Source: an uncultured Rubrobacteraceae bacterium
GTDB taxonomy: Bacteria; Actinomycetota; Rubrobacteria; Rubrobacterales; Rubrobacteraceae
NCBI GenBank assembly: GCA_902805975.1
Contig: CADCUT010000066.1
Coordinates: forward strand, 1-43,503
Length of the DNA stretch: 43,503 nucleotides
Reading direction: 5' to 3'
A model generated the notes under the pieces. That model saw only the letters and a program-made list of their open reading frames with translations, did no database searches and had not been told where the DNA came from. The translations under genes were made by a program, and so were the position numbers. Shown in pieces: positions 1-39,966 of this stretch (positions are counted from its first letter, which is position 1; each line of letters starts with the position of its first letter).

Positions 1-5
1 GGAAG

Positions 6-96
6 CGGAGGAGGAGGGATTCGAACCCTCGATACCCCGTTAGAGAGGTATAACACCTTAGCAGGGTGCCGCCTTCAACCACTCGGCCACTCCTCC
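6..96 (-). tRNA. tRNA-Ser (anticodon GCT)
   Basis: Reverse complement ggaggagtggccgagtggttgaaggcggcaccctgctaaggtg...gggttcgaatccctcctcctcc: 7-bp acceptor, long variable arm, T-loop ttcgaat. Confidence 0.95.
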
Positions 97-5256: not shown

Positions 5257-7365
5257 ATGAGGCTCATAGTCGCGGAGAAGCCGTCGGTCGGGCGGGACAT
5301 AGCGGGCGCCTTGGGCGGGGGACGCAAGGGGAAGGGCTCCGTCACGGGCGACGGTTGGACGGTCACGTGGGCGCTCGGTCACCTCGCGGAGCTCGCGCCG
5401 CCCGATGCCTACGGTGAGCAGTACAAGCGGTGGCGGCTCGAGACGCTGCCCATCCTGCCGGAGAGGTTCAAGGTGAGGGTGACGCCCAAGACCCGCGAGC
5501 AGTTCAACGTCGTCAAGGGGCTCATGAAGGACCCTTCGGTGACCGAGGTCGTCAACGCGTGCGACGCGGGGCGGGAGGGGGAGCTCATCTTCGCGTACCT
5601 CTACGGGCTCTCGGGGTGCCGCAAGCCTGTCCTCCGGCTCTGGATCTCCTCCCTCACCCACGAAGCGATAAGGTCGGGCTTTAACGCTTTGCGCGACGGG
5701 AGCCGCATGAAGCCCCTGGAAGACGCCGCCCGCAGCCGCGGCGAGGCGGACTGGGTCGTCGGCATGAACGCCACCCGCGCCTACTCCGTCCGCTTCGGGC
5801 GTCCCGGCAACGTCCTCTCCGTCGGCCGCGTCCAGACCCCTACCCTCAAGCTTCTCGTGGAGCGCGAGAGGCAGATAGAGGACTTCAAGCCGGAGAAGTT
5901 CTGGACCGTCCACGCCCGCTTCCGCCGCGACGGGAGCTCCTACGACGGCGTCTGGTTCAGGGGCAAGCAGAACCGCCTGGACAACCGGGAGGCCGCCGAG
6001 GAGATAGCGGAGAAGGTCCGGGGCGGGACGGGCGTCGTGAAGAAGGCGGATAAGAAGACCGCCACCGAGAAGCCGCCGCTCCTCTACGACCTGACGGAGC
6101 TCCAGCGCCACGCCAACTCCCGCTTCGGCTTTACCGCCGAGCGGACGTTGAAGGCTGCCCAGTCGCTCTACGAGGGCAAGAAGCTCATCACCTACCCGCG
6201 CACCTCGAGCCGCTACCTCTCGGCGGACATGGTCGGGGGCCTCAAGAAGCGCGTCGAGGCAGCCGGGGGCCTGCCGGAGCTCGCGCCCTTCGCCAGGGAG
6301 TTGCTGGAGCTTCCGAAGCTGCCGATCACACGCCGCATCGTGGACGACTCGAAGGTGACGGACCACCACGCCATCGTACCCACGAACAAGAGGCCCTCGG
6401 GGGACCTCTCCCCGGATGAGGCGAAGGTCTACGACCTGGTGGCGCGGCGCTTTCTGGCCGTGTTCTTCCCCGCGGCCCGCTTCGAGAACACGACCGTCGT
6501 CACGGAGGTCTCCAAGGAGACGTTCCTGAGCAAGGGCCGGGTCGTGCTCGAGGCCGGCTGGCGCGCGCTCTACCCCGGCGGCGTTGGTGGGAAGAAGGAG
6601 CAGGAGCCGCCCATCCTCCCCCCGATAGAGGCCGGGCAGGAGTGGCCCGTCGTCAAGACCGGCGTCAAGGAGGGGGAGACCAAGCCGCCGCCGCGCTACT
6701 CGGAGTCCGCCCTGCTGGGTGCTATGGAGACGGCCGGCAAGCTCGTCGAGGACGAGGAGCTGCGCCAGCAGATGAAGGACTCAGGGCTGGGCACCCCCGC
6801 CACGCGGGCCTCGACCATCGAGCGGCTCATAAGGGTCGGCTACGTCGAGCGCGAGAAGAAGTCCCTGGTACCCACGCAGAAGGGGCGGTCGCTCATCGCG
6901 CTCCTGGGCGACAGCCCGCTCGGATCGCCGGAGCTCACCGCCCGGTGGGAGGAGCGGCTGGCGAGGATGGAGCAGGGCGCCGAGAGACGACCGGACTTCA
7001 TGTCCGACATAACCCGCTTTGCGACCTCGCTCGTGGACGAAGTGCGTGAGATGCAGGGCGAGAAGGTGGCGGCGCCCTCCCGCGGCGACCGGGAGCCGCT
7101 CGGAACGTGCCCGAAGTGCGGCTCACCCGTGGTCGAGACGAAGAAGTCCTACGGCTGCTCGGCCTGGAAGACGAACCGCTGCGATTTCGCGATCTGGAAG
7201 CAGGTCTCAGGCAAGCGCTTGAGCCAGTCCCAGGCAAAACAACTCCTGACGCAGCGTCGCACCCCCCAGCTAAAAGGCTTCAGGAGCAGGGCCGGCAAGC
7301 CGTACTCGGCCGCGCTCAAGCTCGACGAGGAGCACAAGGTCAGGCTCGACTTCGAGGACCGCTGA
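5257..7365 (+). CDS. topB: DNA topoisomerase III (type IA), TopB-like
   Basis: 702 aa; MRLIVAEKPSVGRDIAGALGG, NACDAGREGELIFAYLY, LSVGRVQTPTLKLLVERE, LITYPRTSSRYL, GLGTPATRASTIERLI; Cys-containing C-terminal zinc-ribbon-like region. Confidence 0.95.
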   Translation: MRLIVAEKPSVGRDIAGALGGGRKGKGSVTGDGWTVTWALGHLAELAPPDAYGEQYKRWRLETLPILPERFKVRVTPKTREQFNVVKGLMKDPSVTEVVNACDAGREGELIFAYLYGLSGCRKPVLRLWISSLTHEAIRSGFNALRDGSRMKPLEDAARSRGEADWVVGMNATRAYSVRFGRPGNVLSVGRVQTPTLKLLVERERQIEDFKPEKFWTVHARFRRDGSSYDGVWFRGKQNRLDNREAAEEIAEKVRGGTGVVKKADKKTATEKPPLLYDLTELQRHANSRFGFTAERTLKAAQSLYEGKKLITYPRTSSRYLSADMVGGLKKRVEAAGGLPELAPFARELLELPKLPITRRIVDDSKVTDHHAIVPTNKRPSGDLSPDEAKVYDLVARRFLAVFFPAARFENTTVVTEVSKETFLSKGRVVLEAGWRALYPGGVGGKKEQEPPILPPIEAGQEWPVVKTGVKEGETKPPPRYSESALLGAMETAGKLVEDEELRQQMKDSGLGTPATRASTIERLIRVGYVEREKKSLVPTQKGRSLIALLGDSPLGSPELTARWEERLARMEQGAERRPDFMSDITRFATSLVDEVREMQGEKVAAPSRGDREPLGTCPKCGSPVVETKKSYGCSAWKTNRCDFAIWKQVSGKRLSQSQAKQLLTQRRTPQLKGFRSRAGKPYSAALKLDEEHKVRLDFEDR

Positions 7366-7998: not shown

Positions 7999-8283
7999 TC
8001 ACCCTGCCTTGCTCAACAACATCTGGTCGACCGCGCTCCTCGGGTTGTCGGTCGTTCCGATGTAGATGCTGTGGTTCTTGCCATTCTTGACGAACTTGAA
8101 GTACCAGTACGGCCCGCGGCGCGTACCCTTCTCCGTGTAACGGTACTCCGACTGGAGCCAGCCGCTACGGTAGTTGATGCGCTGCTCAACCTTGCTGGCC
8201 GGGTTCAGCTTGTCATCTATGTACATCTTGAGTTCCGTCAACTGGTCCCGGTCCAGCTGGTCTACCTGCGCGCGAAGCTCCAT
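7999..8283 (-). CDS. Hypothetical small protein (RRGPYWYFKFVKNGKNHSIYIGT motif)
   Basis: 94 aa; GPYWYF...G....YIG pattern resembles a DUF seen in small bacterial/archaeal proteins. Confidence 0.6.
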   Translation of the reverse strand: MELRAQVDQLDRDQLTELKMYIDDKLNPASKVEQRINYRSGWLQSEYRYTEKGTRRGPYWYFKFVKNGKNHSIYIGTTDNPRSAVDQMLLSKAG

Positions 8284-8494
8284 ACGGGAGATCCCCTTCC
8301 TGACGTGTGCTGCACACAGTATACGTGTATCGAGCGGGCTGTCAAGAGGAGTTGGGGGCGAGCGTTGTCCTGCGCGCCGGGCAAACGCGGTGGTCCTCTT
8401 TGGCTGCTCGGTCGCCCGGCGGGACGTTCTGCGGAGATCGGGGTGTAGAAGCCTTAACGGTCGTCTTGGCCAGTTGCGCTACACTCTTGCGGGT

Positions 8495-9736
8495 ATGAGA
8501 GTTATCGTTGTCGGGGCCGGTCTCGCCGGCCTCACGTGCGCAAAGGTGTTAAGAGAACGTGGTGCCGAGGTCTCCGTCTTCGAGGCGTCCGACGGCGTCG
8601 GCGGTCGCGTGCGCACGGACGAGAAGGAAGGTTTCCTGCTCGACCGGGGCTTCCAGGTCTACTTCACCTCGTACCCGGTCTCCAGGCGGCACCTGGACCA
8701 CGACGCGCTCGACTTCCGCGTCTTTGACCCGGGAGCCATCGTGCACCGCGGGCCCGAGCGGAGCGTGCTCTCCGACCCGGTCAGGGACCCGAAGGCGCTG
8801 GTGCCGACCCTGCTCTCCGGGGACGCCACCTTCGCGGACAAGCTCCGCACGGTGGGCCTCGGGGCGAGGACGCTACCCGGGAGCGCGACGAGCGCGGGCC
8901 GGGAGAACGGCGGGGCCGACGTCTCGATACTCGAGTACCTGAGGTCTTCCGGGCTCTCGGAGCGGTACATCGACTCGTTCTACAGGCCTTTTTATGGTGG
9001 GATCACCCTCAACCGGGCGCTCACGACGAGCTCCCGCGTCCTGCGGTTCACGTTCAGGATGCTCGCCACGGGGAGGACCGTGGTGCCGGCGCTCGGGATG
9101 GGGGAGATCTCCAACCAGCTCGCCTCCCACCTGCCGGAGGGCGACGTCCACCTGAACACTGCCGTGCAGGCACTCTTGCGCGAGGATGGACGGGTGCGCG
9201 GTGTTGTGGCCGCAGGGCGGGAGCACGAGGCGGACGCCGTGGTCGTCGCCACGGACGCCCCGACGGCGGGCGACCTCACGGGGGAAGAGACCCCGAAGGA
9301 CTCGGTGGGGGAGGTCTGCCTGTACTACGAGACGAGCGGGCTGGACGACGGGAGGAAGATCCTGCTCAACGCCGATGACGCGCCCTTCGTGAACAACGCC
9401 TCAGAGATGAGCAACGTCTCCGAGAAGTACGCCCCCGAAGGCTGCCACATCCTCTACGCCGTGACCCTTGCGGGGTTGGACCTGCCGGACGACGAGCTCC
9501 TGCGCCGGGGTGTGGAGGACATCAGCCGGTGGTACCCGGACGCCGAGTTCCGGCCGCTCGGGCTCCGCCGCATCCCTTACGGCCAGTTCGCCCAGCCGCC
9601 TGGCATCCACGAGGGTCTGCCGGACAACCGGACGGGGACGCCGGGGCTCTTGCTGGCGGGCGAGTACACGGAGGACTCCTCCATCAACGGCTCGATGCTC
9701 TCGGGAGAGAAGGCCGCGCTTGAGGTGCTCGGGTGA
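8495..9736 (+). CDS. FAD-dependent oxidoreductase (amine oxidase / phytoene-desaturase-like)
   Basis: MRVIVVGAGLAGLTCAKVLRERGAEVSVFEASDGVGGRVRTD dinucleotide-binding motif; C-terminal LLLAGEYTEDSSINGSMLSGEKAA. Confidence 0.9.
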   Translation: MRVIVVGAGLAGLTCAKVLRERGAEVSVFEASDGVGGRVRTDEKEGFLLDRGFQVYFTSYPVSRRHLDHDALDFRVFDPGAIVHRGPERSVLSDPVRDPKALVPTLLSGDATFADKLRTVGLGARTLPGSATSAGRENGGADVSILEYLRSSGLSERYIDSFYRPFYGGITLNRALTTSSRVLRFTFRMLATGRTVVPALGMGEISNQLASHLPEGDVHLNTAVQALLREDGRVRGVVAAGREHEADAVVVATDAPTAGDLTGEETPKDSVGEVCLYYETSGLDDGRKILLNADDAPFVNNASEMSNVSEKYAPEGCHILYAVTLAGLDLPDDELLRRGVEDISRWYPDAEFRPLGLRRIPYGQFAQPPGIHEGLPDNRTGTPGLLLAGEYTEDSSINGSMLSGEKAALEVLG

Positions 9737-10491
9737 GCGGCGTCTACCACAGCGGCGTGCCGGCGCTGAAGATCGAGGGTCTCACGAAGACCTACAAGAA
9801 CGGGTTCCAGGCGCTCGGCGGGGTCTCTTTAGAGGTCGGAGGCGGGAAGTTCTTCGGGCTGCTGGGTCCCAATGGGGCGGGGAAGACGACGCTCATCAAC
9901 AGCGTGGTCAGCCTCGCGCGGCCGGACTCCGGTACGGTCGAGGTCTACGGGAAAGACGCCTTCACAGAGTTTCGGGAGGCGCGGCGCATGATCGGGGTCT
10001 CGCCCCAGGAGATCAACCTCGACAAGTTCCTGACCGTCGAGGAGGTCCTCGTCTTCCACGCCGGCTACTACGGCGTCCCGAAGAAGAAGGCCAAGGATAA
10101 GGCCGCCGAGCTCCTCGAACGCTTCGGCCTCGTCGAGAAGCGGGACCAGCGGACGAACACGCTCTCGGGCGGGATGAAGCGGCGCGTGATGTTCGCCCGC
10201 GCCCTCATGCACGACCCGAAGGTGCTGTTCCTGGACGAGCCGACCGCGGGCGTGGACGTCGAGCTCCGCTACAGCCTGTGGGGCTATGTAAGGGAGCTGA
10301 ACCGCGGCGGTATGACCATCCTGCTCACGACGCACTACCTCGAGGAGGCCGAGGCGCTCTGCGAGGAGATAGCGCTCATAGACGGCGGCGAGATCGTCGC
10401 GCAGGGGACGAACGCCGGGTTGAAGGAGCGGTACGACGCGGCCAACGTCGAGGAGGTCTACATGAAGGTCATAGGCGATGCTTCTAACTGA
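9733..10491 (+). CDS. ABC transporter ATP-binding protein
   Basis: Walker A GPNGAGKTT, signature LSGGMKRR, Walker B VLFLDEPTAGVD. Confidence 0.95.
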   Translation: MSGVYHSGVPALKIEGLTKTYKNGFQALGGVSLEVGGGKFFGLLGPNGAGKTTLINSVVSLARPDSGTVEVYGKDAFTEFREARRMIGVSPQEINLDKFLTVEEVLVFHAGYYGVPKKKAKDKAAELLERFGLVEKRDQRTNTLSGGMKRRVMFARALMHDPKVLFLDEPTAGVDVELRYSLWGYVRELNRGGMTILLTTHYLEEAEALCEEIALIDGGEIVAQGTNAGLKERYDAANVEEVYMKVIGDASN

Positions 10492-11245
10492 CCGGACCTT
10501 CAGGACGCTGCTCTCGCGCGAGGTCTTGCGCTTCACGAGGGTCTGGATGCAGACGATACTACCCCAGATACTTACCTCCCTGCTCTACCTCGTCGTCTTC
10601 GGCATAGCGCTGGGCTCGAGGATTCGCGAGATAGAGGGCGTTCCTTATCTCGAGTACATCCTGCCCGGTATAGCGCTCATGAGCCTCGTCACCAACTCGC
10701 AGATGAACTCATCGTGGTCCGTCTTCGACGCCAAGCGCGAGCGCTACATAGACGAGGTCCTCATAAGCCCCATGAGCGATCTGCAGATAGCGCTGGCGTA
10801 CTCTTTAGGCGGAACCCTGCGCGGGGTCGTGATGGGCGCATGCACCCTGCTCGTCGGCGTCCCGTTCGTCGGGATCTCCGTCCAGCACCCGTTGCTGCTG
10901 GCGGTGATCGGGGTCCTCGGCGCCTTCGCCTTCTCCGCCATAGGCACGATGGTCGGCGCTTTGGCGACGAGGATAGAGCACATCTCGTTTCTGACGAGCA
11001 TCGTCATCCAGCCGCTCACGTTCTTGGGCGGGGTCTTCTACTCCGTCGGGATGCTGCCGGATTCCCTGAGGGTGGCGACGTTCTTCAACCCGATCTTCTA
11101 CACCGTGGACGCCGCCCGCTTCGCCACGTTGGGCATCTCCGACCTCAACCCCTACCCGACGCTCGGGATGGTGTTCCTGATCTCCGTCCTCGCCTTCTGC
11201 GGCGCCTGGTGGGCCATCAGCCGTGGTCCGAACCTCCGCTACTAA
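10478..11245 (+). CDS. ABC-2 type transporter permease
   Basis: Overlaps the ATPase gene; ABC-2 membrane topology, FLGGVFYSVGMLPDSLR. Confidence 0.92.
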   Translation: MLLTDRTFRTLLSREVLRFTRVWMQTILPQILTSLLYLVVFGIALGSRIREIEGVPYLEYILPGIALMSLVTNSQMNSSWSVFDAKRERYIDEVLISPMSDLQIALAYSLGGTLRGVVMGACTLLVGVPFVGISVQHPLLLAVIGVLGAFAFSAIGTMVGALATRIEHISFLTSIVIQPLTFLGGVFYSVGMLPDSLRVATFFNPIFYTVDAARFATLGISDLNPYPTLGMVFLISVLAFCGAWWAISRGPNLRY

Positions 11246-12416
11246 GGGCGCCTCCGCCGGGTCCGCCTGGGCCTTTGTCCTCGTGGTTTTCGCGCTGTCG
11301 AGGCTGCTGTTCATGGGAACCGGCGCCGTGGCCGCGACCTTTCTTCCGCAGGCGGACCCGGCGGGGGACCCCCTGGGACCGACCGGCTTCCTGGGCTACT
11401 GGGCGCGCTGGGACGGGGCGTGGTACGCGGAGATAGCGACGGAGGGCTACGGGGAACGAGCCCCGGCCTCAACGGCTTTCTTTCCGCTTTACCCGGTGCT
11501 CGTCAAGCTGGGGGTCTTCTTCTGGGGTGGCCCGGCGCTCTGGGGGGTTCTGGTCTCGCTCTCGGCAACGGCTCTTGCGCTCTTCTTCCTTTACGGAATA
11601 GGCGAGCACCTCTTCGACGCCAGGGCCGCCCGCGCCGCCACGCTCTGCCTGGCGTTCTTCCCGACGGCCTTTTTCCTGAACGCCGCCTACACCGAGGCAC
11701 CTTTCCTCGCGCTGACGGCGGGAAGTGTCTGGGCGGCTCTCGTGCGGCGGGACTTCCTGATCGCGGGGCTGCTCGGGGCGCTGGCGGCGGCGACGCGCAA
11801 CGTGGGCGTCCTGCTTCTGGTGCCGCTCTTCTGGGAGTGGGCGCGGCACCGGCGGGAGTTGGGGTTGCGCGGCGTGGTCGGCATGGCGCTCGTGCCGGTG
11901 GGGCTCGCGGCTTACGCGGCCTACCTGTGGGCGAGGTTCGGGGACCCGCTTCTCTTCGCGCGGCAGCAGGGGGACTACTGGAACCGCGAGGTGTCCGGGC
12001 CTCTGGCGACGCTCGGCGACGCCTGGCGGGCCGCCGGGGTGGGGATGGAGTACGTCCTCGACCCGGCGACGCTCTTTCTCGGGGCTGACGCGACGCCGGC
12101 TTTAGAGGCTTCGAACGTGCTCAACCTGGGGTTTCTGGTGTTCTTTCTCGTGGTGGCGTTCGCGGGGCTCTTCGTGTTGCCGCCGGGGCTCTCGGTCTAC
12201 GCCGCCGTGCTGGTGCTGCTGCCGGTGCTAACGCCCTCGCCCCGGTTCCCGCTGATGAGCCTGCCGCGCTTCGTGCTCGGGGCGTTCCCGGTCTTTCTCG
12301 TGCTGGGATACTTCCTGTCGCGGTCCAGGTGGACGCGCACGGCCTGGCTCGCGGCGTCGGGTGGTCTCGGGGTGGCGCTGACGGCGTTGTTCGTCACCTG
12401 GCGGTGGGTGGCGTAG
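11223..12416 (+). CDS. PIG-V-like mannosyltransferase family membrane protein
   Basis: YWARWDGAWYAEIATEGY (GT-C luminal motif), FFPLYPVLVKL, many TM segments. Confidence 0.8.
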   Translation: MVRTSATKGASAGSAWAFVLVVFALSRLLFMGTGAVAATFLPQADPAGDPLGPTGFLGYWARWDGAWYAEIATEGYGERAPASTAFFPLYPVLVKLGVFFWGGPALWGVLVSLSATALALFFLYGIGEHLFDARAARAATLCLAFFPTAFFLNAAYTEAPFLALTAGSVWAALVRRDFLIAGLLGALAAATRNVGVLLLVPLFWEWARHRRELGLRGVVGMALVPVGLAAYAAYLWARFGDPLLFARQQGDYWNREVSGPLATLGDAWRAAGVGMEYVLDPATLFLGADATPALEASNVLNLGFLVFFLVVAFAGLFVLPPGLSVYAAVLVLLPVLTPSPRFPLMSLPRFVLGAFPVFLVLGYFLSRSRWTRTAWLAASGGLGVALTALFVTWRWVA

Positions 12417-24600: not shown

Positions 24601-25338
24601 ATGGAAGGACGCGTGATGGACGCGATGAGCGCCGGCCTGACCACGGGTCAGCCGATACAAAACTTCGAGTTGCCCGACGAGGAGGGGAGGCCCTTCGACC
24701 TCTACGAGAGGTTGAGGCGGGAGCCGCTCGTCCTCGTATTCTACCGGGGCGACTGGTGACCGTACTGCAACGGGCAGCTGGTCAGCTATGCCAGGACGTA
24801 CGAAGAGTTCAAACGACGCGGTTTCGGGGTCGCGGGTGTAAGCATCGACCCGCCGGGCAGCAACGCGGCGATGGTCGAGAAGCTCGGCCTGCCGTTCCCG
24901 CTGCTCAGCGACCCGCGGGGGGATCTGATCAAGAGCCTCGATCTCTGGAACGAGGAGGAGGGGGTCTCTGAGCCGGCGATCCTGGTCCTCGACAGATCAG
25001 GCGCGGTGCGCCACCTCTACTCCGGCGGCTCGGACTTCTCGGACCGCCCCGCGAACGGGGACCTTATGGACATTCTCGATGGGATAGACCCCGGGGGCGA
25101 GCCCGGGAACGGCGAACCCGCGATCCGCATCTCAGCCGAGGAGGCTGAGGACGCGACGGTGCGCCCGGAGAAGCCCGCCATGACCCTCGACGCGCTACGT
25201 CCCTACTACCTGGGCGCCCACTTCACCGCGGTCGCGCTGCAGAAAAAGCTCGACGGCGGGGCGAGAGAGACGGTCGCTGCCTACCAGGGGCTCGTCGACG
25301 AGTACAACGAAGCCCTGCGCGAGACGGCCAGGCGCTAA
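24601..25338 (+). CDS. Peroxiredoxin-like (AhpC/TSA) protein with in-frame UGA at the peroxidatic Cys position; candidate selenoprotein
   Basis: ATG at 24601 (24625 also possible), in-frame TGA 24757-24759, same frame to TAA 25338: ...LRREPLVLVFYRGDW[U]PYCNGQLVSYARTYEEFKRRGFGVAGVSIDPPGSNAAMVEKLGLPFPLLSDPRGDLIKSLDL.... The track shows only the 3' part (24871-25338). Confidence 0.82.
24773..24792 (+). promoter_or_regulatory. Candidate bacterial SECIS stem-loop (peroxiredoxin-like mRNA)
   Basis: GGCAGCU-GGUC-AGCU(AU)GCC: 7 bp with a 2-nt bulge and GGUC tetraloop; loop starts after 20 intervening nt from the UGA. Confidence 0.7.
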
Positions 25339-25826: not shown

Positions 25827-28292
25827 CTACGTCCGCTGGCCGGCGCCCTCTTCCAGCCGGCGGTAGATGGCTTCGCGGTCGATCATGCGCTCGACGTGGC
25901 CTTCGACACCGAGCTTGAGCGCGGCGACTTCGTGGGCGAAGCGCACGCACGCGGGCCAGCCCTTGCCGTCGAGGTGAGCGACGAGCAGCGCCGACCAGAA
26001 CGCGTCGCGGGCGCCGGTGACGCTGTGCACCTCGACCTTCGGCAGGGGACCCACCCGCTCCACGGAGGTCCCGTCAGAGACGACGACCGCGCCGCCGCTA
26101 CGGGTCATGACGACGACGCCTGCCCCGAGGTCGTGGAAGGCGTCGAGGCAGGCCTCCTCGAGCGCGTCGTCGTCCATGTTCGGGTCGAAGAGGCGGCGGG
26201 CGTCTTCGAGGGAGGGCTTGACGACGGTGACGTAGGGGAGGACCTCAGCGAGCACCTCCCAGGCCTCCTCCCGGTCCGGCCAGACGCGCGGGTCGTAGTT
26301 GGGATCGAGGGAGACGACCTTCCCGAGCCTGGACCCCAGGCGCATCGCCCTTCTCACGGCGAGCCGCTGCGGGTCGCGGGAGAGGGCGAAGGCCGAGGTG
26401 TGGACGGCCCGCGCCCGCTCGACGAGCTCGTCGGGGACCTCCCTGATGCTCAGGTGCGCGTCGGCGCCCCGGTTGACCTGGAAGTCCGGCACGTTCACGG
26501 TCCTGGTGACGAAGGCGCTCGTGGTCGGCTCCCCCGGCGCGCGGTGGAGGCCCTCCGTGGAGACGCCGTGGCGCCCCAGCTGGTCCTCGACGAACTCGCC
26601 GAAGTAGTCCGCGCCTACCTTCGTGACGACCGCCGAGCGACCGCCCAGCTTGGCGACGTAGACGGCCACGTTGGCCGGCTGGCCGCCCAGGTAGCGCGAG
26701 AACCTGTTCGCCGTCCTGAGTGAGATCCTGAACTCGTGCGAGATAAAGTCCACGAGCGACTCCCCGACCGCGAGCACGTCGAGCCCGAAGTACAGCCCGT
26801 CCAACGTCTCGAGCGAGGCCCCGTCGTCCGAGCCGGGGTCGGTGAAGTACCTTGGGATCTCCAGCCTCGCCGAGGGCGTCGGAAACCCGTTCGGGGAGGC
26901 TGTCGCGTCCCGCCCGTTTCCGGCGATGGCCTCCAGGTACCCCTCGGCGGTCCGCTCCCAGGTGTACTTGGCGAGCACGCGCCCGTAGCCGGCCTCGGCG
27001 TAGCGGCGCCAGCGGCCGGCGTTGCCCGCCACGGAGTACAGGCCCGCCGCGACCTCCTCGGGATCTCCCGGGTCCACAAGCACCCCGTACTCCTCGTCTC
27101 CCTCGCGCAGCGACTCGCTCGGCCCTCCGTTCTTGGTGACGACCGCGGGCAGGCCCGCCGCCATCGCCTCCAGCGGGGCGAGCCCGAATGGCTCGTAGTT
27201 GGCCGTGAGCGCGAAGACCGAGCGCCGCTCGGAGAGGAAGCGGTAGGCGGCGGCCAATCGTCGCTGGCCCCTGACGGCGAACATGGAGACCATGCCGCGC
27301 ATCCCCGCCCGGTCTATCGTTCCCGTGATGCCGTCGAGCACGGCCCGCTCGCCCTCGTCGGCGTCCCTGTAGTCCACGAGCGGGTTCTCCATGTTGCCCG
27401 TGAGGATCACCAGGTTCGCCGCCTCGCGCAAGGTCGGGCTGCTGGCGAAGGCCTCGACGAGCGAGAGGTGGTTCTTTTTCGGGTCGAGCCGGCTGGAGGC
27501 GACGACGCACGGCAGGTCCCGCCGGTCGGCGGTGAGGTCGCGGGCCAGGCACGTGCTGACGTGCTCGCGGACGGCGTCCTCGTCGTCTGTGCGGGACTCC
27601 TTGTCGAAGATGTGCATGGCCACGCCCGGGGGCACGGCGGCGAAGCGGTCGCCGTCGGTCGGGTCCACGGCCCCGCGGTAGGCGTTGTGGGTGTACTGGA
27701 CGAAACGCTCCTGGCCCGTGCTGGTGACGTTGACCCGCGAGCGGTTCATCGCCAGCCGCTCGGCCACGATGCGCCGGGAGAAGTGGTACTTCTGGTCCGT
27801 ATTCGCGACGTCGCGGCGGCGCACGCCCATCTTGTCCATCTTCTGGGCGCCCAGGGAGTGGGCCGTGAAGCTGAACGGTATGCCGGTCCTCTCCTCGATA
27901 AGCGCGGCGCACAGCCCGCCGTCCCCGTAGTGCGCCGTGACGGCGTCCGGCAGAGAGCCCTCGCGCTCGTAGAAGGAGAGCAGGTTCGGCACGAACTCCG
28001 TGCCGAGGTAGGGCCAGAGCTCTTCTTTAGGCAGGAAGTGGTCCGGGCCGCAGGGGATGCGGAGTATGCGCACGTTGGGGGCGTCGGGGTAGGCGTCTGT
28101 TGGGGCCTCGAACTCGGGCCAGTTCGGATCGATGACCCGGCGGGTCACGATGTCCACGTGGTGTCCGAGGTTTCCCATCGCGAGCGCCAGCTCCTTGACG
28201 TAGACGAGCTGGCCGCCGAAGTCCGGGTGGGCGGTCCAGTAGGAGTCCTCAGGATCGAAGTTCCCCTGCGGGTTGATAAACGCTACGTGCAT
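25827..28292 (-). CDS. Fusion: sucrose-phosphate-synthase-like GT4 glycosyltransferase + PfkB-family sugar kinase
   Basis: N-term MHVAFINPQGNFDPEDSYWTAHPDFGGQLVYVKELALAMGNLGHHVDIVTRRVIDP, NYEPFGLAPLEAMAAGLPAVVTKNGGPSE; C-term DVLAVGESLVDFISHEFRI...GGQPANVAVYVAKLGGRSAVVTKVG...VHSVTGARDAFWSALL. Confidence 0.92.
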   Translation of the reverse strand: MHVAFINPQGNFDPEDSYWTAHPDFGGQLVYVKELALAMGNLGHHVDIVTRRVIDPNWPEFEAPTDAYPDAPNVRILRIPCGPDHFLPKEELWPYLGTEFVPNLLSFYEREGSLPDAVTAHYGDGGLCAALIEERTGIPFSFTAHSLGAQKMDKMGVRRRDVANTDQKYHFSRRIVAERLAMNRSRVNVTSTGQERFVQYTHNAYRGAVDPTDGDRFAAVPPGVAMHIFDKESRTDDEDAVREHVSTCLARDLTADRRDLPCVVASSRLDPKKNHLSLVEAFASSPTLREAANLVILTGNMENPLVDYRDADEGERAVLDGITGTIDRAGMRGMVSMFAVRGQRRLAAAYRFLSERRSVFALTANYEPFGLAPLEAMAAGLPAVVTKNGGPSESLREGDEEYGVLVDPGDPEEVAAGLYSVAGNAGRWRRYAEAGYGRVLAKYTWERTAEGYLEAIAGNGRDATASPNGFPTPSARLEIPRYFTDPGSDDGASLETLDGLYFGLDVLAVGESLVDFISHEFRISLRTANRFSRYLGGQPANVAVYVAKLGGRSAVVTKVGADYFGEFVEDQLGRHGVSTEGLHRAPGEPTTSAFVTRTVNVPDFQVNRGADAHLSIREVPDELVERARAVHTSAFALSRDPQRLAVRRAMRLGSRLGKVVSLDPNYDPRVWPDREEAWEVLAEVLPYVTVVKPSLEDARRLFDPNMDDDALEEACLDAFHDLGAGVVVMTRSGGAVVVSDGTSVERVGPLPKVEVHSVTGARDAFWSALLVAHLDGKGWPACVRFAHEVAALKLGVEGHVERMIDREAIYRRLEEGAGQRT

Positions 28293-28317: not shown

Positions 28318-29802
28318 TCACGGGTGCCCGGGACGGTCGGGCCAGCCCCGCAGGCGCGGCAGTGACGCCGGGGCCGGCCCCCGGGCGAAGTCCGGGATTG
28401 GAAAGGAGGGGTCCCCGGACCGCTCCCCCCGCGCGGCTTCGTCGGCCAGCCGCAGGTAGCCCTCCGCGGTGCGGTGCCAGTTGTACAGGTTGCGGGCCCT
28501 CTCGAGGGCCCGGCCGGCGTAGGCCTTCCAGACCTCCCCGTCGGAGAGAAGGCTGAGCAGCTTCGCGGCGATGTCCTCGGGGTCGTGGGGGTCGGCGAGG
28601 AGGCCGGCCCGGCCCTCGTCGGTGGTCTCGCGCGTGCCGCCGTTCTGGGTGGCGACCACGGGGAGGCCGGACGCCATGGCCTCGACGACCGTCATACCGA
28701 AGGGCTCGTACTCGGCCGGGAGGCAGAAGACGCCGCCCGTCTGGGCACCCCAGCGGTAGAGGGCGGCGAGCGCCGTCTGGCCCGAGAGGCCGAAGGCCGA
28801 GACGCCGCCCCACAGGTCTTCGCGGTCTACGGTTGGTATCAGGGCGTCGAGGACCGACCGCTCTTCCCCGGAGGCCTCATCGGGGTCGCGCAGCGGGTCG
28901 TCGAGGCCGCGGGTGATCATTACCAGGTTCGCCCGCTCCCTGAGCGCGTCGCTGCCGGCGAAGGCCTCGACGAGCGAGAGGTGGTTCTTTTTCGGGTCGA
29001 GCCGGCTCCAGGCGATGACCGCCGGAAGTCCCCGGCGGCCCGGATCTATGTCCCGCTCGTGGGCGGCCCGGATGGACTCGCGGGTCTCTTCCTCCTGCTC
29101 GCTACGCGCCTCGGGGTCGAAGATGCCGAAGTCCACGCCCGGCGGTACCACGGCGAAGCGCCCGTCGTCCGTCGGGTCCACGGCGCCCCGGTAGGCCGGG
29201 TGGTCGTACTGCTCCCGGCGCTCGGCGTCGCTGTTCGCCACGTTCGCCACCGAGCGGGCCATGGACGCGCGCTCGGCGGCGATCCTCGCCCCGAAGTTGT
29301 ACCGGGCGTCCGCCGCCGGGAGGTCGTCGGTTTCTCGCAGAAGCCCGTCGAGCTTCCAGGCGCCCAAAGAGTGTCCGGTGAAGGTGAAGGGGGCGCCCGA
29401 GGCCTCCGAGAGCAGCGCCGCCGCGAGGCCCCCGTCGGCGTAATGACCGGTCCAGAGCTCGGGCCACGAGCCCTCCTGCTCGTAGAGCGCGGCCACCCTC
29501 TCCGCCCACTCCCCAAGGTAGGGCCACAGCTCCTCTTTGGGAAGGAAGCGGTCGGGGCCGCACGGGACGCGGAGTACTCGGACGTTGTCTTGCCCAGGGT
29601 AGGCGTCGGTCTTACCGGCGAACTCCGGCCAGTCCGGGTCGATGACCTGGCGCGTGACGATGTCCGCGTGGTGGCCCATTTCGCCGAGCACGCGGGCTAC
29701 CTCCCTGACGTAGACGAGCTGGCCGCCGAAGTCCGGGTGGGAGGCGAGGTAGCTGTTGTGCGGGTCGAAGTTACCCTGCGGGTTTACGAAGGCGACGCGC
29801 AT
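28318..29802 (-). CDS. Sucrose-phosphate-synthase-like GT4 glycosyltransferase (unfused)
   Basis: MRVAFVNPQGNFDPHNSYLASHPDFGGQLVYVREVARVLGEMGHHADIVTRQVIDPDWPEF; EYEPFGMTVVEAMASGLPVVATQNGG. Confidence 0.92.
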   Translation of the reverse strand: MRVAFVNPQGNFDPHNSYLASHPDFGGQLVYVREVARVLGEMGHHADIVTRQVIDPDWPEFAGKTDAYPGQDNVRVLRVPCGPDRFLPKEELWPYLGEWAERVAALYEQEGSWPELWTGHYADGGLAAALLSEASGAPFTFTGHSLGAWKLDGLLRETDDLPAADARYNFGARIAAERASMARSVANVANSDAERREQYDHPAYRGAVDPTDDGRFAVVPPGVDFGIFDPEARSEQEEETRESIRAAHERDIDPGRRGLPAVIAWSRLDPKKNHLSLVEAFAGSDALRERANLVMITRGLDDPLRDPDEASGEERSVLDALIPTVDREDLWGGVSAFGLSGQTALAALYRWGAQTGGVFCLPAEYEPFGMTVVEAMASGLPVVATQNGGTRETTDEGRAGLLADPHDPEDIAAKLLSLLSDGEVWKAYAGRALERARNLYNWHRTAEGYLRLADEAARGERSGDPSFPIPDFARGPAPASLPRLRGWPDRPGHP

Positions 29803-29812
29803 AAGACCTTCC

Positions 29813-30790
29813 TCAGCCCTCCCGGGATCCGGCCGTCTCCCCGGCGTTCGCCAGGCTGGCGTAGATCTCCTCGCGGTCGATGTCCGCCGGGAGGGGGCCC
29901 TTGGTCGTGAGCTTGCGCTCGACGATCTCGCGGGCGAAGAGGACGGATCGCTCGGCCTCGTTGCCGTCTAGAAGCGCCGTCAGGAAGCCGGCCCAGAACG
30001 AGTCCCCGGCGCCGGTCGCGTCCACGACGTCCACCGGGCGGGCGGGGACGTGGGCCGTGATCTTGCCACCTTCGGAGACGAGGTTCCCCTCTGCGCCCAT
30101 CGTGAAGACGACGGTCTCGGGCCCTAAGTCGTGGAACATCTCGATGTACTGCTCGGGCTCGTAATCCGGGCCGAAGACCCTGCGGGCGTCGTCGGCGGAG
30201 GGCTTGGTGACGTTGACGTGCTTGTAGGCCTCGCGGATCACGCCCTGCGCCTCCTTGTAGTCGGGCCACACGCGCCGGCTGTAGTTCGGGTCGAGTGAGA
30301 CGATCTTGCCCATCTCCCGCGCCCTGCTGAAGGCACCTATGACGGCCGAGCGGCAGGGCTCGCGCGAGAGGGCGAAGGTGGAGGAGTGGACGACCTTGGC
30401 CCGTTCGATGGCCTCGTCGGGGATCTCCCTCGACTCGAGCAGGAAGTCGCCGATGCGGAACTCCTCGAAGTCCGGGGTGGTAGCGGTGGAGGAGACGAAG
30501 ATCACGGTGGTGTTGGTCCTGTGGTCCATCTGAAGATAATCGGTGACGACCCCGTGGCGCTGTAGCTCGCTCTTGAGGAACTTCCCGAAGGCCCCGATGC
30601 CGGTCTTGGAGATCACGGCCGACCGCCCCCCGAGCTTGGAGACGTACACCGCGATGTTGGCCGGCGACCCCCCGAGGTACCGCTTGAACGTTGTCGCGTT
30701 GCTTAAGGTGTCGGTCTTCTCCGCCGAGATAAAGTCGACCACCATCTCCCCGATGGTGAGGACGTCTAGTTGCCGCTCGGAGGAAGCCAT
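29813..30790 (-). CDS. PfkB-family carbohydrate kinase (fructokinase-like, unfused)
   Basis: DVLTIGEMVVDFISAEKTDTLSNATTFKRYLGGSPANIAVYVSKLGGRSAVISKTG; VDVVDATGAGDSFWAGFLTALL signature. Confidence 0.94.
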   Translation of the reverse strand: MASSERQLDVLTIGEMVVDFISAEKTDTLSNATTFKRYLGGSPANIAVYVSKLGGRSAVISKTGIGAFGKFLKSELQRHGVVTDYLQMDHRTNTTVIFVSSTATTPDFEEFRIGDFLLESREIPDEAIERAKVVHSSTFALSREPCRSAVIGAFSRAREMGKIVSLDPNYSRRVWPDYKEAQGVIREAYKHVNVTKPSADDARRVFGPDYEPEQYIEMFHDLGPETVVFTMGAEGNLVSEGGKITAHVPARPVDVVDATGAGDSFWAGFLTALLDGNEAERSVLFAREIVERKLTTKGPLPADIDREEIYASLANAGETAGSREG

Positions 30791-39738: not shown

Positions 39739-39829
39739 GGAGAGGTGTCCGAGTTGGCCGAAGGAGCGCGATTGGAAATCGCGTAGGCGGTGTTAAGCCG
39801 TCTCGAGGGTTCGAATCCCTCCCTCTCCG
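39739..39829 (+). tRNA. tRNA-Ser (anticodon GGA)
   Basis: ggagaggtgtccgagttggccgaaggagcgcgattggaaatcgcgtaggcggtgttaagccgtctcgagggttcgaatccctccctctccg; 7-bp acceptor, long variable arm. Confidence 0.96.
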
Positions 39830-39966
39830 CTTTTTCCTCCCTTTTGCAGCAAAAACGTGGCGTGGCGATCGCGCGATTCGCGCGGTCGAACGCCGCGCCG
39901 GGGCGCGGGTTGCGGCGGCGAACCGGCAACCGACCAGCAACCCGGCCAAAAACCTGCCCGAAAAGG

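Follow-up and report, generated by a model that had tools for sequence, protein, structure and literature searches.

The question raised by this locus is whether a TGA codon, lying inside an otherwise uninterrupted peroxiredoxin-like reading frame of an uncultured Rubrobacteraceae bacterium, ends translation or is read as selenocysteine (Sec). We conclude with high confidence that the frame 24601-25338 is a functional selenoprotein gene whose UGA is read as Sec. The window refers to the whole stretch of 43,503 nucleotides that was analyzed, and coordinates given without a locus name are those of the window.

The reading frame and its in-frame UGA

The translation of 24601-25338 on the forward strand reads MEGRVMDAMSAGL...LVLVFYRGDW, then TGA, then PYCNGQLVSYARTYEEF...ETARR followed by the stop codon. 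The TGA at 24757-24759 is the sole internal stop, as had been stated in a preliminary description made from the sequence alone. The features of the gene are presented in Table 1; 24616 or 24625 could be alternative start codons. The same description had expected automated callers to keep the C-terminal fragment, and the mechanical list of open reading frames indeed retains just 24871-25338 (155 aa).

Table 1. Features of the Prx-like selenoprotein gene in the window.
Feature	Position	Strand	Remarks
Selenoprotein gene, Prx-like (AhpC/TSA), UxxC	24601..25338	+	245 aa plus stop codon
UGA codon, read as Sec, residue 53, in GDW-U-PYC	24757..24759	+	TGA at the same codon across genomes
TGC codon, Cys56, second half of UxxC	24766..24768	+	Invariant in alignments; peroxidatic-Cys column of Bcp/AhpE
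Predicted bacterial SECIS apical hairpin	24773..24792	+	Fit to the model of PMC13188914; GGCAGCU 24773-24779, loop GGUC 24780-24783, AGCU 24784-24787, bulge AU 24788-24789, GCC 24790-24792
C-terminal helical extension, about residues 175-245	25123..25335	+	Family-conserved, beyond the AhpC-TSA domain

The read-through product was matched by Pfam AhpC-TSA (PF00578) with an E-value of 7.5e-32 over residues 16-138, spanning the TGA, and with a score of 110.3 bits, above the gathering score of 26; PF08534 also matched, less well than PF00578. The AlphaFold2 model, with Cys modelled for Sec, is confident (pLDDT 91) and has a Prx/Trx fold. None of the NCBIfam models reached its cut-off with the read-through protein. 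Since standard callers also split the gene, its annotation is probably wrong in many genomes. PADLOC gave no result.

Elsewhere in the window, an 821-aa reading frame on the minus strand (25827-28292) combines a sucrose-synthase-like GT-B glycosyltransferase with a PfkB sugar kinase, and adjoins two stand-alone genes of the same types, for a glycosyltransferase (28318-29802) and for a PfkB kinase (29813-30790).

Codon 53 in orthologs and homologs

A six-frame search of 60 relatives revealed, in many Rubrobacteraceae genera, orthologs with a single internal stop, a TGA at the variable codon of GDW-x-PYC. Full-length alignment of the TGA orthologs gave 47-90% identity, with conservation reaching the C-terminus; recurrence of the TGA at one codon of such orthologs excludes a chance origin. 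TGA at codon 53 was found in Rubrobacteraceae, Acidimicrobiia, Euzebyaceae, Chloroflexota and Thermomicrobiales, and a minority of Rubrobacteraceae copies had Cys, Ser or Asp instead. The alternative codons in this column were TGC as well as TCC (Ser) and GAC (Asp), the last two in one genome each. The comparison of this column suggested in the preliminary description thus revealed TGA in distant orthologs and Cys in homologs. The Ser copy (L037, genome G008) and the Asp copy (L035, genome G007) are close homologs from the window's own genus, and each retains the second Cys of the motif.

Named genomes were scanned with the post-TGA part alone as query, so that TGA was neither favoured nor excluded. 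Among the matches listed, 17 of the 18 loci with the motif had TGA; these came from records of Rubrobacter, Euzebyaceae, Acidimicrobiia, Chloroflexota and Thermomicrobiales, some labelled just "bacterium", and the remaining locus, with TCC, came from one Rubrobacteraceae MAG. Within the phylum, the exact TGA motif occurred in 26 of 396 genomes and the Cys form in six, all six of them Rubrobacteraceae.

The sequence downstream of the TGA behaves as coding sequence. Compared with a sister ortholog (L022), 29 of the 46 post-TGA nucleotide differences fall at third codon positions, and the proteins of the window gene and of its ortholog in G004, the closest relative, are 90% identical, with a third-position bias. 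Together with the 47-90% identity of the orthologs, these values agree with the earlier argument that conservation after the stop opposes a pseudogene.

The organism's own genome carries a second copy on the minus strand (L176, 1694-2422; G000:C113:5193-5921), which has GDWCPYC and is 46% identical to the window protein. Two homologs, L046 (G033:C75) and L044 (G030:C1:1780451-1781196), look damaged, perhaps through decay or through faulty assembly: one has several stops inside the match, and the other is split into two frames that overlap. A homolog in G006, for which a TAG was reported, was considered as a case of UAG-Sec recoding and rejected: its active-site codon is TGC, and the TAG is therefore placed elsewhere in that frame.

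The SECIS-like hairpin and the selenocysteine machinery

A search for a SECIS element after the UGA had been recommended, and the candidate hairpin found there, with 7 bp and a GGUC loop 20 nt downstream of the UGA, fits the published bacterial SECIS model (PMC13188914). The predicted folding energy is -10.6 kcal/mol for the 42 nt past the UGA and -7.1 for the apical hairpin alone. All hairpin pairs form in 14 of 14 Rubrobacteraceae sequences; seven pairs are invariant, and at the eighth, loop-closing pair (N1-N2) 11 sequences have G-C and three have A-U. Because the A-U sequences include one pair of sisters, about two covariation events can be counted. Controls with slid positions were at most 47% paired. 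Moreover, synonymous sites do not vary in codons +5, +6, +9, +11 and +12 but do so in codon +10, which contains the bulge, and the mean excess codon identity over codons +1 to +13 is 0.53, compared with 0.07 for the 40 codons upstream of the UGA and 0.13 farther downstream (p=0.0025). The hairpin was not unusually stable when compared with synonymous recodings, a test weakened by the fact that its background codon usage was drawn from the same sequences. RNAalifold recovered no common structure from the mixed-phyla set, and the hairpin claim thus rests on the Rubrobacteraceae set.

The preliminary description had asked for selA, selB, selC and selD in the genome and had regarded an absence of Sec machinery as decisive against the proposal. 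The outcome was divided. The organism's own assembly (G000; 82% complete, 238 contigs) contains a selD with an otherwise open frame, whose in-frame UGA occupies the position usual for Sec (KAGUASK); none of selA, selB and selC was detected in it or in the assembly of G004. Two selD-like sequences are present (L019, about 9303-10337, and L020, 3489-4076), one of full length with the Sec-type UGA and the other clipped by a contig end, with its active site missing. The best selB match proved to be EF-Tu, beside fusA, and the best matches to the tRNA-Sec model (RF01852) in this genome were ordinary tRNAs, namely tRNA-Ser, tRNA-Leu and others. The two tRNAs of the window at 5-96 (minus strand) and 39739-39830 (plus strand), with anticodons GCU and GGA, had weak scores with this model and are ordinary tRNA-Ser genes.

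In the family, selA was found in 32 of 39 genomes, including all 22 of high quality, and tRNA-Sec scored above the cut-off in 29 of 39; ARAGORN assigned a UCA anticodon to each of the 12 tRNA-Sec loci run. An intact cluster is located on the minus strand of L073 in G006 (selA 10059-11423, selB 8207-10066, selC 8090-8179). When the 20-kb G006 region around it was aligned to G004, one contig ended at query position 7005 and the next began at about 11775, so that the cluster coincides precisely with the break between these contigs, while both of its flanks are present. G000 is without the whole 20-kb region. On the basis of this synteny, the missing selABC genes are best explained by assembly gaps, a conclusion shown for G004 and extended by analogy to G000, and we infer that selA, selB and selC exist in this organism.

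The proposed candidate selenoprotein is thus supported by the conservation of TGA at one codon across genera, classes and phyla, with Cys in homologs; by coding conservation past the TGA, combined with a bSECIS-type hairpin having frozen synonymous sites and a covarying pair; by the genome's own selD with its Sec-type UGA, added to the selA, tRNA-Sec(UCA) and G006 selA-selB-selC of the family; and by the confident Prx/Trx-fold model. Counting against it are selA, selB and selC missing from the own assembly, the ordinary stability of the hairpin and its lack of a cross-phyla structure. The missing genes, and the intact Cys paralog in the same genome, speak for a rival view in which the TGA is a recent nonsense mutation or a sequencing error, that is, a real stop or no stop at all, in a remainder that is either decaying or intact Cys code. 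However, the same TGA recurs across many genera and several phyla in assemblies made independently, which leads us to reject both pseudogene and error; additionally, the gene has no further stop and no frameshift, its protein conservation and third-position bias continue past the TGA, and the codons directly downstream are under synonymous constraint. The chance of this explanation is very slim. A slim chance is left to the view that Sec is ancestral to the lineage and selABC were lately lost, which would make the UGA a stop codon today and the gene a new pseudogene. The absence of the three genes from both the MAG and G004, and of the entire 20-kb region from the former, would fit, but the cluster site in G004 is a gap between contig ends with flanks present, the MAG is only 82% complete, the selD frame is still open and retains its own UGA, and the G000 and G004 proteins keep their 90% identity with third-position bias. 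Decoding of UGA as Trp, Gly or Cys, through suppression or a variant code, has a negligible probability: Cys does work at codon 53 in homologs, but recoding is confined to this redox-active, Cys-equivalent codon and to the Sec site of selD, a SECIS-like hairpin follows the window UGA, and relatives possess selA, selB and a tRNA-Sec with UCA anticodon.

Within the Sec reading, the protein could still be a true peroxiredoxin with Sec in place of the peroxidatic Cys, as the preliminary description had it. The Prx fold, and the fact that the best matches in both sequence and structure are the AhpE and Bcp peroxiredoxins (target TM-score about 0.85-0.9, ~25% identity), speak for this view. In a profile alignment with solved Bcp/AhpE peroxiredoxins (2cx3, 4xih), however, Sec53 corresponds to the Thr/Ser of (T/S)xxC and Cys56 to the peroxidatic Cys, which indicates a thioredoxin-like UxxC site; the redox motif U53-P-Y-C56 replaces TxxC/TxxU. 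The Thr/Ser typical of peroxiredoxins, three residues before the peroxidatic Cys or Sec, is absent, this position being Sec53 itself if Cys56 is peroxidatic and Gly50 if Sec53 is. Moreover, position 53 is Ser or Asp in some homologs that retain Cys56, and Sec-Prx proper has TxxU where the Prx-like class has UxxC (PMC1088965). A true Sec-peroxiredoxin is therefore unlikely; of the earlier claim, the UxxC motif stands and, by the alignment, the peroxidatic position moves to Cys56.

Function, evolution and relation to known selenoproteins

Judged from its sequence, the protein is most likely a Prx-like (UxxC) thiol-dependent oxidoreductase or peroxidase. In the mechanism that we propose, SelB would bind the hairpin and bring Sec-tRNA(Sec) to the UGA, giving a product of 245 residues with a Trx/Prx fold and the U53-P-Y-C56 motif. 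The selenol of Sec53 would attack a peroxide or disulfide substrate, Cys56 would resolve the intermediate, most likely through a Sec53-Cys56 selenenylsulfide, and a thioredoxin-type electron donor may recycle the enzyme.

In trees built without and with Bcp-type outgroups, the Sec copies of Chloroflexota, Acidimicrobiia and Euzebyaceae lie outside, and the Cys, Ser and Asp copies sit among the Sec copies of Rubrobacteraceae. Sec thus looks ancestral in these sequence trees, and the Rubrobacteraceae Cys/Ser/Asp copies derived, with a root that is not firm owing to the long outgroup branch. Two Sec rows group with one Cys row with moderate support, so that the trees allow either two losses or a single loss plus a regain. 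This apparent direction is the most unusual feature of the case, as Sec-to-Cys replacement is described as rare in bacteria and chiefly documented for FdhA and SelD (PMC13188914). We tentatively suggest, at somewhat less than even odds, an unnamed Sec-dominated Prx-like subfamily of Actinomycetota and Chloroflexota, defined by GDWUPYCNGQL and the C-terminal helical extension, in which Rubrobacteraceae have exchanged an ancestral Sec for Cys and, in some copies, even for Ser or Asp. If so, the subfamily would supply a natural set of variants for studying what leads to the retention or loss of Sec; as Cys/Ser/Asp copies occur inside a Sec family and Sec and Cys copies in one genome, the Sec/Cys trade-off could be tested within one organism.

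The window gene belongs to an already known kind, the Prx-like UxxC selenoproteins, reported since at least 2005 (PMC1088965) and corresponding to "Prx-like" of the Sargasso Sea and "Prx-like 1" of the GOS selenoproteomes. Five selenoproteins were counted in Rubrobacter xylanophilus in 2006, unnamed in the main text of that report, and the parts of the selenoprotein literature covered here contained no naming of this gene for Rubrobacter.

Sec-peroxiredoxin TxxU (NCBIfam NF040737, PrxU) shares the AhpC/TSA fold and an active-site Sec with the window protein, but its Sec is at the opposite end of the motif, and the window protein scores 31.1 against a cut-off of 270. The AhpE and Bcp/PrxQ peroxiredoxins (4x0x, 5epf, 2cx3), the closest matches in sequence and structure, differ in having a TxxC active site, no Sec and no C-terminal extension. 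A UxxC selenoprotein described as Redoxin family protein (HEU0032618.1, PMC13188914) is alike in fold class and motif type; by description, the comparison made here, it differs in that the window protein fits PF00578 better than PF08534. The Prx-like thiol:disulfide oxidoreductase selenoproteins (PF00578, UxxC/UxxU, catalogue representative WP_010940744.1; PMC1088965, PMC2398784, PMC13188914) share the domain, UxxC in place of TxxC and a post-UGA bacterial SECIS. Compared with these, again by description, the window family is marked by a C-terminal helical extension that is conserved, and the hosts found here are Actinomycetota and Chloroflexota/Thermomicrobiota.
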